Shown: piece after piece, positions 9,717 through 13,318 of the stretch
How the letters are laid out: the number at the start of each line of letters is the position of its first letter
How positions within the stretch are numbered: position 1 is the stretch's first letter
Assembly: GCA_022827095.1 (NCBI GenBank)
Contig: JAJDTP010000005.1
Coordinates: forward strand, 124,001 to 188,000
DNA length: 64,000 nt
Reading direction: 5' to 3'
Source: Dehalococcoidia bacterium
Lineage (GTDB): Bacteria; Chloroflexota; Dehalococcoidia; Lucifugimonadales; UBA3495
The notes under the pieces: model-generated
What the model was told of the DNA's origin: nothing
The model's input: only the letters and a program-made list of their open reading frames with translations
Databases searched by the model: none
Made by a program: the position numbers and the translations under genes

Positions 9717-10790
9717 TCACCCCGGAATCTCTATCTTCTCCGTCACCACCCGAGTCACTCCCCAGCCGGCCAGCCAGGCGGAGTGGCGTCCGTCGCCCCC
9801 GGCCACAACCACCACGATGTCGTCGGCCTGGAGCGAGATCGGCACCATGGTATTCGGATCCTCGTCGTTGACCCAATCCGGGTAGTTTCGGTTGCCCCAA
9901 TGTCCCAGCCCGGACAGGTCGGCGATTGACATGCGCGCGTTGGCGAACACGTACTCCCGGACATCCTGCTTGGTGAACCCATCCGCCGCCATTTCTGCCG
10001 CGTGCTCGGGGCTGATCACCAGCGTCACCTGCGCCCCCGTCCCGATCTGGTAGAAATTGGAGAAACCCGTGGCCCGGGTCGCCTGCACCAGCGTGTTGAG
10101 CACGTCCGTGCCCCGGGACACCGTGGTTTCCATGACCGGGTAGAAGGCCCGGATGGCGTGCAGAGTCACCATGCTGTCTTCCGGGTCCAACCCCAGCTCC
10201 ACGTGCCTCGGCTCCCACGGGCTCCGCGCCTCGTTCTCGGCGAAGCAGAAGGAATAGCGGCCCGGCATCGCCAGAGTAGCCTTGTCCATGTCGCCGATGA
10301 TCAGCCCGGCCACGTTGCGGACGAACAGGCGCAGCGCCCGGCCGATAGTCGCATTAGCCCGGTAACCGGGACCGAACGCGCCCGAGTCGCCGTTGATGCC
10401 CAACCGTTCCGCAATGGGCCCGTTGACGATTACCACCGGAGCGGCGCCGCCCGTGGTGGCCTGGCACCCGGCCAGGTTGAATGACGTCTGCAGGACTGCT
10501 TTCACGCAGGCCACCACCACCGGAAAGTACTCCGGTCGACAGCCGGCCATCACCGCGTTGATCGCGACCTTCTCGATGGTGACTTCCGAGTTGGAAGGCT
10601 GGGCTATGCCCAGGGACAGCGAGGGGTCTTCGCCCCACGGGCCGAGCATCCGTTGCACGGCATCCTCCGTGGCCGGAACGACGGGCATCCCGTCGGTCCA
10701 TCCCTGTTCTTCGTAGTAGTCCTGGATCGCGTCGTAGGTGTCAGGCACGGTGATCCGGCGCGAGTTCAAGGCTCGACTGTTGGTTGTCAT
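9717..10790 (-). CDS. Conserved protein with GWTDGxPVVPxT motif
   Basis: 357-residue protein of a conserved family of unknown function that I recognise by its N-terminal GWTDGMPVVPATEDAV and the central NGPIAERLGINGDSGAFGPG and GRALRLFVRNVAG blocks. Cysteines sit in two conserved contexts (VMAGCRPEYFP and NLAGCQATTGG) and could be functional. No signal peptide or membrane segment is visible. The start is ATG 10788-10790; an upstream in-frame start would lie inside the neighbouring gene. It overlaps the end of the phosphatase-like gene by 50 bases and precedes the HigA-like gene by 8. It is two genes downstream of the UGSC selenoprotein. Function unknown. Confidence 0.75.
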   Translation of the reverse strand: MTTNSRALNSRRITVPDTYDAIQDYYEEQGWTDGMPVVPATEDAVQRMLGPWGEDPSLSLGIAQPSNSEVTIEKVAINAVMAGCRPEYFPVVVACVKAVLQTSFNLAGCQATTGGAAPVVIVNGPIAERLGINGDSGAFGPGYRANATIGRALRLFVRNVAGLIIGDMDKATLAMPGRYSFCFAENEARSPWEPRHVELGLDPEDSMVTLHAIRAFYPVMETTVSRGTDVLNTLVQATRATGFSNFYQIGTGAQVTLVISPEHAAEMAADGFTKQDVREYVFANARMSIADLSGLGHWGNRNYPDWVNDEDPNTMVPISLQADDIVVVVAGGDGRHSAWLAGWGVTRVVTEKIEIPG

Positions 10791-11559
10791 AAAGTTCACT
10801 CTTCTGCGGTGGATTTTGCGGCGGGTCGCCGGTGGACAGATCGGCGAGGACGCCGAAATGGTCGGACAGGCGCCGTTCTCCGTCCATATTGTCAATCGTG
10901 GTCAGGGATGCAGCGGATAGTTCTCCGCTGATGGCGATATGGTCAATGGCGCGCCGGCCCCGCAAACCAAGTCCGGCGGTCGCGATGGTCAAGCCTGGCG
11001 TTGGCCCGGCAAGCATGGTTTCCTGCAATTGGGCACGCGCCGGACGAGAAAGCGGCGGGTAAGGCCTTCGGCGTTGCCCAATTTGCTGGTTGAAGTCGCC
11101 CATCAGGATGAGCGGACCGGGTGCCTGACGTTCCAGGATTGCAGCGAGGCCACCGAGATACGTGGAGTGGTCTTCCCACGGTTCTTTGTTCTTGGCGCCG
11201 ACGTTCACATTGGCGTTGTGATAGGGGATACAAACGCCAATCACTGTTACCTCGCCCGCCGACGTTTGCGTGGTGCCGGCGATGAAACGTCCCTTGGGTA
11301 AAGCCTCGCATCCAACATCATCAACATCAGTCCACCCGCAACGCGACCAAAGGAGCACTTTCTGTTGATTGCTCCCGGCTGACGGACTCCAACGATCCCG
11401 GGGAGAGATCAAGTGCCCGTCCCACTCCGACAACAGCCTTGCGTCTGTCTCCGTGAGGCAGATGATGTCCGGACAGTGCTCGGTAAGGCGGTCCAAAATG
11501 TAAGGGCTACGCGCTGCAGCGGGCGTAGCCCATTCGACATTCCAGTTGACCACTTTCAT
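10741..11559 (-). CDS. Endonuclease/exonuclease/phosphatase family protein
   Basis: 272-residue EEP-fold hydrolase, probably a metal-dependent phosphodiesterase or nuclease. Fold signatures: N-terminal VVNWNVEWA (metal-binding Asn), CLTETDARLL (metal Glu), LILMGDFNQQIG (catalytic Asp/Asn), IDHIAISG and the C-terminal LSDHFGVL (catalytic Asp-His). The substrate cannot be told. The C-terminal 30 residues past the catalytic His are low-complexity. No signal peptide. It lies 28 bases downstream of the selenoprotein gene on the same strand. Confidence 0.82.
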   Translation of the reverse strand: MKVVNWNVEWATPAAARSPYILDRLTEHCPDIICLTETDARLLSEWDGHLISPRDRWSPSAGSNQQKVLLWSRCGWTDVDDVGCEALPKGRFIAGTTQTSAGEVTVIGVCIPYHNANVNVGAKNKEPWEDHSTYLGGLAAILERQAPGPLILMGDFNQQIGQRRRPYPPLSRPARAQLQETMLAGPTPGLTIATAGLGLRGRRAIDHIAISGELSAASLTTIDNMDGERRLSDHFGVLADLSTGDPPQNPPQKSELYDNQQSSLELAPDHRA

Positions 11560-11587: not shown

Positions 11588-12127
11588 TTACTTCCCGTTG
11601 GTCAGCATCTCGGCGATCTGGCCGGCGTACTCGTGCGCCAAATGCTGCACTTCCGGTATCGACCGGGAGGCCAGGGGACTGGGCAACGCCAGGATTTGTA
11701 CGCCGGGCATTCCCAGCGAGGAGGCGCGGGCGTGCGCGGCCCGGGTGAAACTCTCGGTGATGACGCTAACGGATGGAATCCCGCGGGTTTCGGTAACTAC
11801 TGTGTCGTGGAGACCCCACGCCGTGCAGCTCCCTCAATCCGCGATGCCGTGCACCACCGCATCGCATTGCTCGATTAGCTCGTCAATGGTCTCGTCTGAG
11901 CAGGGGGCGCTGAAACTGAACTTCCGAAGGTAGACCACCTTCTCGACGGCGTACTCCTCCTCCAGGATTACCTGGAGTTCCTGCAGGAAGTTGTCGGAGT
12001 GGTACTTGCGGTTTTCCAGCAGACCGATGGTCTTGCCCGCCAGGCCGGGCAAGCGGCCCGCGGCATCCCGCTCCTCGGTCTTTTGCTCTGGACGCGGGTC
12101 CAGGATCTGGATGGTTGCGGTCGTCAT
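11588..12127 (-). CDS. UGSC-family selenoprotein (in-frame TGA read as selenocysteine)
   Basis: 179-residue protein if TGA 11834-11836 is decoded as selenocysteine at position 98. The N-terminal part (97 residues) contains GLAGKTIGLLENRKYHSDNFLQ and ends CDAVVHGIAD. Then follow TGA and GSCTAWGLHDTVVTETRGIP, giving the U-G-S-C motif of the family of that name, with Cys101 a likely redox partner of Sec98. The frame stays open for 81 codons to TAA 11588-11590 and keeps a Rossmann-like pattern (IPSVSVITESF). A hairpin with a GGTCT loop begins 13 bases after the TGA. The biochemical role of the family is not known to me. It is preceded by guaB3 and followed by the EEP protein. An automatic caller would truncate it at 97 residues. 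Confidence 0.88.
11806..11836 (-). promoter_or_regulatory. Bacterial SECIS element with its UGA codon
   Basis: TGA (11834-11836) is followed 13 bases later by a perfect 5-bp stem CGTGG/CCACG closing a GGTCT loop at 11811-11815. The loop starts 18 bases after the TGA, within the distance used by bacterial SECIS elements. As I recall, the GGUCU loop sequence also occurs in the E. coli fdhF SECIS. Expected to bind SelB in the mRNA. Confidence 0.78.
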
Positions 12128-12148
12128 GGTTCCTCCGTTTGCTATTCA

Positions 12149-12181: not shown

Positions 12182-13318
12182 TTATCCCAGCATCTGGTAG
12201 TGCTTGCCCTCGGTCTTGATCGCCGGGGCGATGACCATTTCAGTTTTGTGGAAATCGCGCACGGTGTACGCGCCACACATGCCCATGGCCACGCGCAACG
12301 CGCCGACGAGGTTCTGCGTGCCGTTGGTCACGCTGGACGGCCCATGCATCAGTTGCCTCAGAGATCCCTTGGTGCCGACGTTGATCCGGGTTCCCCGAGG
12401 CAGTTCGGGATGGGCGTTAGCCATGCCCCAGTTGTAACCCCGTCCCGGCGCCTCGGCCGCCTGGGCAAATGGCGTGCCCAGCATGACGCCGTCGGCTCCG
12501 CTGGCCATGGCCTTGCATACGTCGCCGCCCGTCCGCAGCCCTCCATCGGTGATCACGCTGACGTACCGGCCCGTGCGCTGGAAATAGTCCTCGCGAGCAG
12601 CCGCGCACTCCAGGGTCGCAGTCACCTGCGGCACGCCAACCCCGGTCACCTCGCGGGTGGTGCAGGCCGCGCCAGGGCCAACCCCGACGAGTATGGCGTC
12701 GATCCCGGTTTCCATCAGTTCGCTGGCGACGGCGTAGCTGACGCAGTTGCCCACCACCACGGGTACGTTCAGCGATTCGATCAACTCGGAAAAGATGAGA
12801 CCCCGGTAACTGCGGGACATGTGCCGCGCCGTGGTAACCGTCGACTGCACCACGATGATGTCGGCGCCGGCCTCCACCGCCATCGGGCTGAGCCGCTTGG
12901 TGGTCTGGGGGGTGAACGCGATGGCGGCTATGGACCCCGACTGCTTGATCTCCTGGACGCGCTCGCCGATCAGGTGATCCTGCACCGGCTGGCTGTAAAC
13001 CTCTTGTAGGTACTCCGTGACCTCCGCCTGGTCCATCGAGATGATTTCTTCCAGCACCGAGTAGGGGTCTTCGTACCGGGTGTAGAGGCCCTCGCCATTC
13101 AGCACGCCGAGACCGCCCATCTCGTGCATCAGTGTCGCGAATCGAGGCGACACCGAACCGTCCATCGCAGAGGCCATTACCGGGGATTCGAACGAGTACT
13201 GGCCAATGCTCATCTGAGTGGATGTCATTTCCGGGTTGATCGTGACTTCGCCGGGGACGATTGCGACTTCGTCAAAACCGTAGGACCGTTCCAATTCTTT
13301 GAGCAAACGCCTGGCCAT
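12182..13318 (-). CDS. GuaB3-type IMP dehydrogenase-related protein
   Basis: 378-residue TIM-barrel protein of the IMPDH/GMP reductase superfamily, closest in length and motifs to the GuaB3 group. The catalytic Cys loop is [20 protein letters not shown] near residue 225, the phosphate-binding region is [20 protein letters not shown] near 275, followed by [12 protein letters not shown]. No CBS domains, unlike classical GuaB. In actinobacteria and relatives such proteins accompany a separate true IMPDH; the exact reaction is uncertain. GAGGTGAC lies just upstream of the start. It is the first gene of the minus-strand group containing the selenoprotein and has its own consensus promoter. Confidence 0.85.

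Follow-up and report, generated by a model that had tools for sequence, protein, structure and literature searches.

An in-frame TGA in a UGSC-family gene

Selenoproteins of the UGSC family are known yet functionally unexplained. The 64,000-nucleotide stretch analyzed here (the window), from contig JAJDTP010000005.1 of a SAR202-type member of the Dehalococcoidia (Chloroflexota), carries on its minus strand, at 11588..12127, a UGSC-family selenoprotein gene that is recognized by family models and homologues and encodes 179 residues, with a predicted selenocysteine (Sec, U) at position 98 within the motif D-U-G-S-C. The reading frame begins at ATG 12127, preceded by a GGAGG (12132..12136, minus strand) that, as read off the sequence, is a likely ribosome-binding site. 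It runs for 97 codons to the TGA at 11836-11834 and then for a further 81 codons to the TAA at 11590-11588, exactly the coordinates given in an earlier note on this DNA. That note stressed the 81 codons free of any further stop, which are indeed there; an open extension past a TGA is not by itself significant, because this GC-rich window contains 36 places at which a TGA-ended frame of at least 90 codons is followed by about 80 or more further open codons. What raises the present frame above chance is homology that spans the TGA, to which the conservation of the TGA, the selection acting past it and the RNA constraint directly 3' of it add.

Searched against the UGSC models, the 179-residue translation matches Pfam PF24696 with an E-value of 1.1e-50 and 172.6 bits (cut-off 25) over profile positions 1-171 of 172, spanning the TGA. 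The match to NCBIfam UGSC_fam (NF041046), which also spans the TGA, reaches 131.3 bits against a cut-off of 125; in a genome-wide search the same locus scored 123.9 bits with this model, slightly below the cut-off. The family membership and the D-U-G-S-C motif proposed in the earlier note are thus borne out by two curated models, and the gene is a further member of an already described family, published by 2008. The note had also considered the gene hidden by its TGA. The in-frame TGA is real, and the gene is less hidden than supposed, since an NCBIfam UGSC (seleno)protein model serves annotation.

Homologues aligning across the TGA, the lack of which the note would have taken as grounds for giving up its reading, are present. 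The U/C-G-S-C motif is found with its U encoded by TGA, and all 46 homologues compared agree at positions 99 and 101 and have U or C at position 98. Twelve orthologues from other Dehalococcoidia, SAR202 and Chloroflexota assemblies, 86-94% identical, all have the TGA (11834..11836, minus strand; 13 of the 13 orthologues compared), as does each of the seven UGSC genes in the genome that carries the window; a sequencing error is very unlikely, because the same TGA occurs in 12 other assemblies. More distant homologues carry a cysteine (Cys) codon at this site, TGT in one from Archaeoglobi and TGC in four from sphingomonads. Two other genomes of the class (G027 and G028) have at least 11 UGSC copies each, and such high copy number in some members suggests substrate diversification.

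Selection, RNA structure and selenocysteine machinery

Purifying selection is evident on both sides of the TGA, with a ratio of nonsynonymous to synonymous substitution rates (dN/dS) among 13 orthologues of 0.064 upstream and 0.088 downstream. Synonymous change is itself depressed immediately after the TGA: dS is 0.078 over the 14 codons 99-112 versus 0.677 over codons 113-175, about ninefold lower over a predicted hairpin, and 10 of 12 conserved degenerate codons there are invariant, versus 22 of 114 elsewhere (Fisher p 1.5e-5). The hairpin, CGUGG-GGUCU-CCACG (11806..11820, minus strand), is of the bacterial selenocysteine insertion sequence (SECIS) type and occupies nucleotides 17-31 counted from the U of the UGA, with G23-U24 in its loop. 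We take this loop, GGUCU at nucleotides 22-26, to be the same as that of the Escherichia coli fdhF SECIS. In 54 Sec-encoding genes, nucleotides 17-21 pair with 27-31 around a five-base loop at a fixed distance from the TGA. Every one of the 54 forms pair 21-27 (26 GC, 28 CG), which has switched twice on the tree, on both sides each time, and the loop positions are G23 in 52 and U24 in 53 of the genes. G23-U24 is absent from all 10 Cys homologues, of which just one keeps all five stem pairs. Bacterial SECIS elements have a conserved G in the apical loop (PMC4607533), and the hairpin in the window, with its 5-bp stem, has this G as in bacterial selenoprotein genes.

The earlier note predicted that selA, selB, selD and tRNA-Sec would be encoded elsewhere in the genome. 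All four were located in the assembly (selA 541 bits, selB 355 bits, selD 376 bits and a tRNA-Sec with anticodon UCA at 66.4 bits), so the counterargument it had named, a genome without this machinery, does not arise. In selD (L021, G000:C20:25694-26614, minus strand) the N-terminal motif contains an in-frame TGA, and the selenophosphate synthetase of this genome is probably itself a selenoprotein.

A genuine stop at this position, leaving a 97-residue fragment or a pseudogene, would agree with the normal meaning of TGA and with the many frames that stay open by chance in the GC-rich window. It is nevertheless highly improbable, as purifying selection persists past the TGA, the codon is invariant in 13 orthologues and replaced by Cys in distant homologues, and a conserved hairpin and the full Sec machinery are present. 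The comparative data instead support the reading of UGA98 as selenocysteine in a message that would carry a SECIS hairpin at nucleotides 17-31. The finding itself is confirmed as real, and its first interpretation as a UGSC selenoprotein gene is supported.

Predicted fold and relationship to GrdB and PrdB

A Global Ocean Sampling (GOS) survey (PMC2398784) describes the UGSC family as likely thioredoxin-like. Such a protein would be a thiol/disulfide oxidoreductase of the UxxC type acting on proteins or peroxides, a proposal consistent with the thioredoxin-like spacing of UxxC and with the trxA/trxB genes that adjoin some homologues (Arthrobacter, Roseovarius). An AlphaFold2 model built on the 46-sequence alignment, with a predicted local distance difference test (pLDDT) score of 94.8, points elsewhere: strands and helices alternate in five units, U98 sits between strand 3 and the helix after it, and the best structure matches are flavodoxin-like and Rossmann-like domains. 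Thioredoxin is absent among the listed matches of this predicted model, which is not proof. Profile comparison by hhalign gives a probability of 0.9% with thioredoxins of the same and related genomes, versus 93-96% (score 57-66) with GrdB/PrdB, the selenoprotein subunit of glycine and proline reductases, with Sec aligned to Sec. A thioredoxin-fold oxidoreductase of this kind is accordingly an unlikely explanation, and the predicted fold is flavodoxin/Rossmann-like rather than the published thioredoxin-like one.

The GrdB/PrdB comparison set comprised 14 sequences read through their TGA, and 120 decoys (reversed, shuffled or block-shuffled) reached a maximum score of 28 versus the 57-66 obtained with GrdB/PrdB. 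One Cys-containing UGSC protein matches the gly_red_sel_B model directly, if weakly (E-value 0.0098). The protein of the window matches neither PF07355 nor the GrdB/PrdB models, its kinship being visible by profile-profile comparison only, and sequence searches of the PDB with UGSC, partner and GrdB/PrdB profiles returned nothing meaningful. By these comparisons the UGSC family appears to be kin to GrdB/PrdB, a relationship that is well supported as kinship and not as membership.

PrdB-like genes of the class showed a related annotation problem. A PrdB-like protein of the same genome (L109, G000:C35, minus strand 1232-2431), read through its TGA, matches TIGR04483 with an E-value of 1.2e-46, below cut-off, and runs into a C-terminal extension. 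Short PF07355 matches of the class, among them L099-L108, all stop at a TGA in the cases inspected, and past it the frame stays open and contains x-x-C. Automatic annotation may therefore truncate many PrdB-like selenoproteins in the class.

A conserved partner protein

A second gene of the window, on the minus strand at 9717..10790, encodes a 357-residue protein, here called the partner, that belongs to no Pfam or NCBIfam family (a Pfam scan of its 39 homologues also found none) and lies near or fused to UGSC in most loci. A partner homologue accompanies 54 of the 59 UGSC copies examined, including all seven in the genome of the window, which has seven partner copies as well. Across 294 genomes of the class, 88 encode both proteins, 6 UGSC only and 1 the partner only, while 199 lack both (p 1.7e-66, not corrected for relatedness). 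Fusions of the two occur in several lineages, and both gene orders are found. On annotated plasmids of haloarchaea, Arthrobacter and Roseovarius, the partner appears as a 'hypothetical protein' next to a 'UGSC family (seleno)protein'.

The UGSC protein might also be a GrdB/PrdB relative acting alone, with the partner co-inherited in the same catabolic operon for a separate step. Five of 59 UGSC copies have no close partner, no partner was detected in 6 of 94 UGSC genomes, and in the window an unrelated open reading frame (ORF) separates the two genes, all of which would fit this explanation. Set against the fusions in several lineages, the occurrence of both gene orders, the equal copy numbers in this genome and the near-perfect co-occurrence, it seems unlikely to us, although clearly less so than a thioredoxin fold. 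From sequence comparison we infer a distant relationship between UGSC and the GrdB/PrdB subunit, and take the 357-residue protein to be the usual partner of UGSC.

Invariant positions of the partner include D33, N78, C84 and E185. Its model (pLDDT 90.3) has no clear structural relative. The weak fold likeness to the alpha subunit of two-subunit class I fumarase (PDB 7xky; Foldseek E-value 5.1e-4, probability 0.95) comes with a low TM-score of 0.31 and a single invariant Cys (C84), and is not a usable assignment; fumarase- and chorismate-mutase-like matches are weak and partial and were not used as a clue to function. The partner could form the basis of a new protein family entry. The GOS survey (PMC2398784) reports that UGSC is also fused to a conserved domain named 'Unknown_1'. 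This domain may correspond to the partner; no description of the near-universal linkage was found in the available part of that text.

Gene neighborhoods

Between UGSC and the partner lies an ORF of the Exo_endo_phos family (10741..11559, minus strand) that is probably outside the system. It evolves fast: 11 of 12 close relatives have it, at 36-71% identity, and it was not found in the remaining one (L066). Such variability makes a role in the system unlikely. Upstream of UGSC, a gene related to GuaB3-type inosine monophosphate dehydrogenase (12182..13318, minus strand) shows conserved synteny and is not part of the system.

Thioredoxin genes adjoin the pair in several bacteria: the gene order is trxB-trxA-partner-UGSC in Arthrobacter and partner-UGSC-trxB in Roseovarius, trxB is close to the pair in Variovorax SRS16, and a weaker TrxB-like enzyme is encoded near the fusion of Variovorax boronicumulans. 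In Roseovarius sp. THAF8 the UGSC protein is a Cys homologue (WP_152498375.1), paired with WP_152498376.1. The other UGSC pairs in the genome of the window neighbor genes for short-chain dehydrogenases/reductases, luciferase-like proteins, an FMN dehydrogenase, an HpcH aldolase and an AXE1 esterase, which point to catabolism without singling out one substrate. Neighboring transporters, among them TRAP/TTT transporters, together with coenzyme A-transferases, lyases and dehydrogenases suggest the catabolism of organic acids.

Three further loci show other associations. On plasmid pFER4 of Paracoccus ferrooxidans (L152), selB is about 3 kb away from a partner homologue, which is flanked on the other side by genes for cysteine desulfurase and by DsrE/TusA-type genes. 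An Arthrobacter protein (L149:6024-6836) has a NifU-like domain, with a marginal Pfam score, fused to UGSC, and a small similar-looking ORF (L068:5691-5927) precedes a sphingomonad fusion; these two possibly hint at an iron-sulfur link.

Proposed mechanism

The sequence evidence supports decoding of UGA98 as Sec by SelA, SelB, SelD and tRNA-Sec together with the SECIS, and we propose that the GrdB/PrdB-related UGSC protein forms a single two-part enzyme with the partner (9717-10790). The partner would bind and position a small carboxylated substrate, on which the selenolate of U98, located where a helix begins, would act as nucleophile or reductant. A selenenylsulfide between U98 and C101 would follow, to be reduced again by thioredoxin and thioredoxin reductase. 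Everything in this scheme from the binding of the substrate on is inferred by analogy: for GrdB-type proteins, Sec has been proposed to attack a polar C-X bond as a nucleophile (PMC10838667), and it is on this model that attack by U98 is suggested. The seven pairs in this genome probably act on different substrates. We give this model as a whole an even chance of being correct.

Several observations weigh against it. At the RNA level, the single-sequence fold energy of the hairpin is unremarkable (z -1.6), and comparative evidence was therefore used for the SECIS; the covariation at pair 21-27 is supportive, not decisive, because it amounts to just two independent switches on the tree despite overwhelming raw counts. 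No GrdE homologue (PF09338, GrdE/PrdA type) was found in the genome of the window, and the partner was ruled out as a GrdE relative (hhalign 0.0%), so the chemistry need not match that of glycine reductase. A clear trxB occurs in just three annotated plasmid neighborhoods, and none was recognized beside the seven pairs of this genome. Fusions in Sporomusa (L147:4374-6095) and Vibrio (L154:4707-6389), each adjoining aconitase X and DUF126 genes, lack both redox residues and have the motif D-M-G-T-S; they are apparently non-redox members, and part of the superfamily therefore does something else. Finally, the open-licence papers searched contained no biochemistry for any UGSC protein and none that named SAR202 together with UGSC or selenoprotein.

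Comparison with known systems

The window gene does not differ in membership from the published UGSC family (PF24696, NF041046; GOS survey PMC2398784), with which it shares sequence family, UGSC motif, in-frame UGA, SECIS and occurrence in aquatic bacteria; the published thioredoxin-like fold is what our analysis does not support. New here are the kinship to GrdB/PrdB, the near-obligate and uncatalogued partner, and the link to thioredoxin, through which an orphan family gains a specific type of reaction that can be tested and two identified proteins to express. Somewhat more tentatively than the model above, UGSC and its partner could constitute a new class of two-subunit, thioredoxin-driven Sec (or Cys) enzyme. 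It would be a counterpart of GrdB/PrdB whose substrate-binding subunit is unrelated, and would have expanded among SAR202-type Chloroflexota while occurring in haloarchaea, actinobacteria and proteobacteria as well. Such enzymes might break C-X bonds in small organic acids reductively. Unlike GrdB/PrdB, UGSC proteins are without the GrdB N-terminal half, and their partner is unrelated to GrdE. Like GrdB/PrdB (PF07355), the selenoprotein B of glycine, sarcosine, betaine and D-proline reductases, they carry Sec-x-x-Cys following a beta strand, where profile comparison matches the two residue by residue, and both groups have several paralogues per genome and thioredoxin genes in some of their operons.
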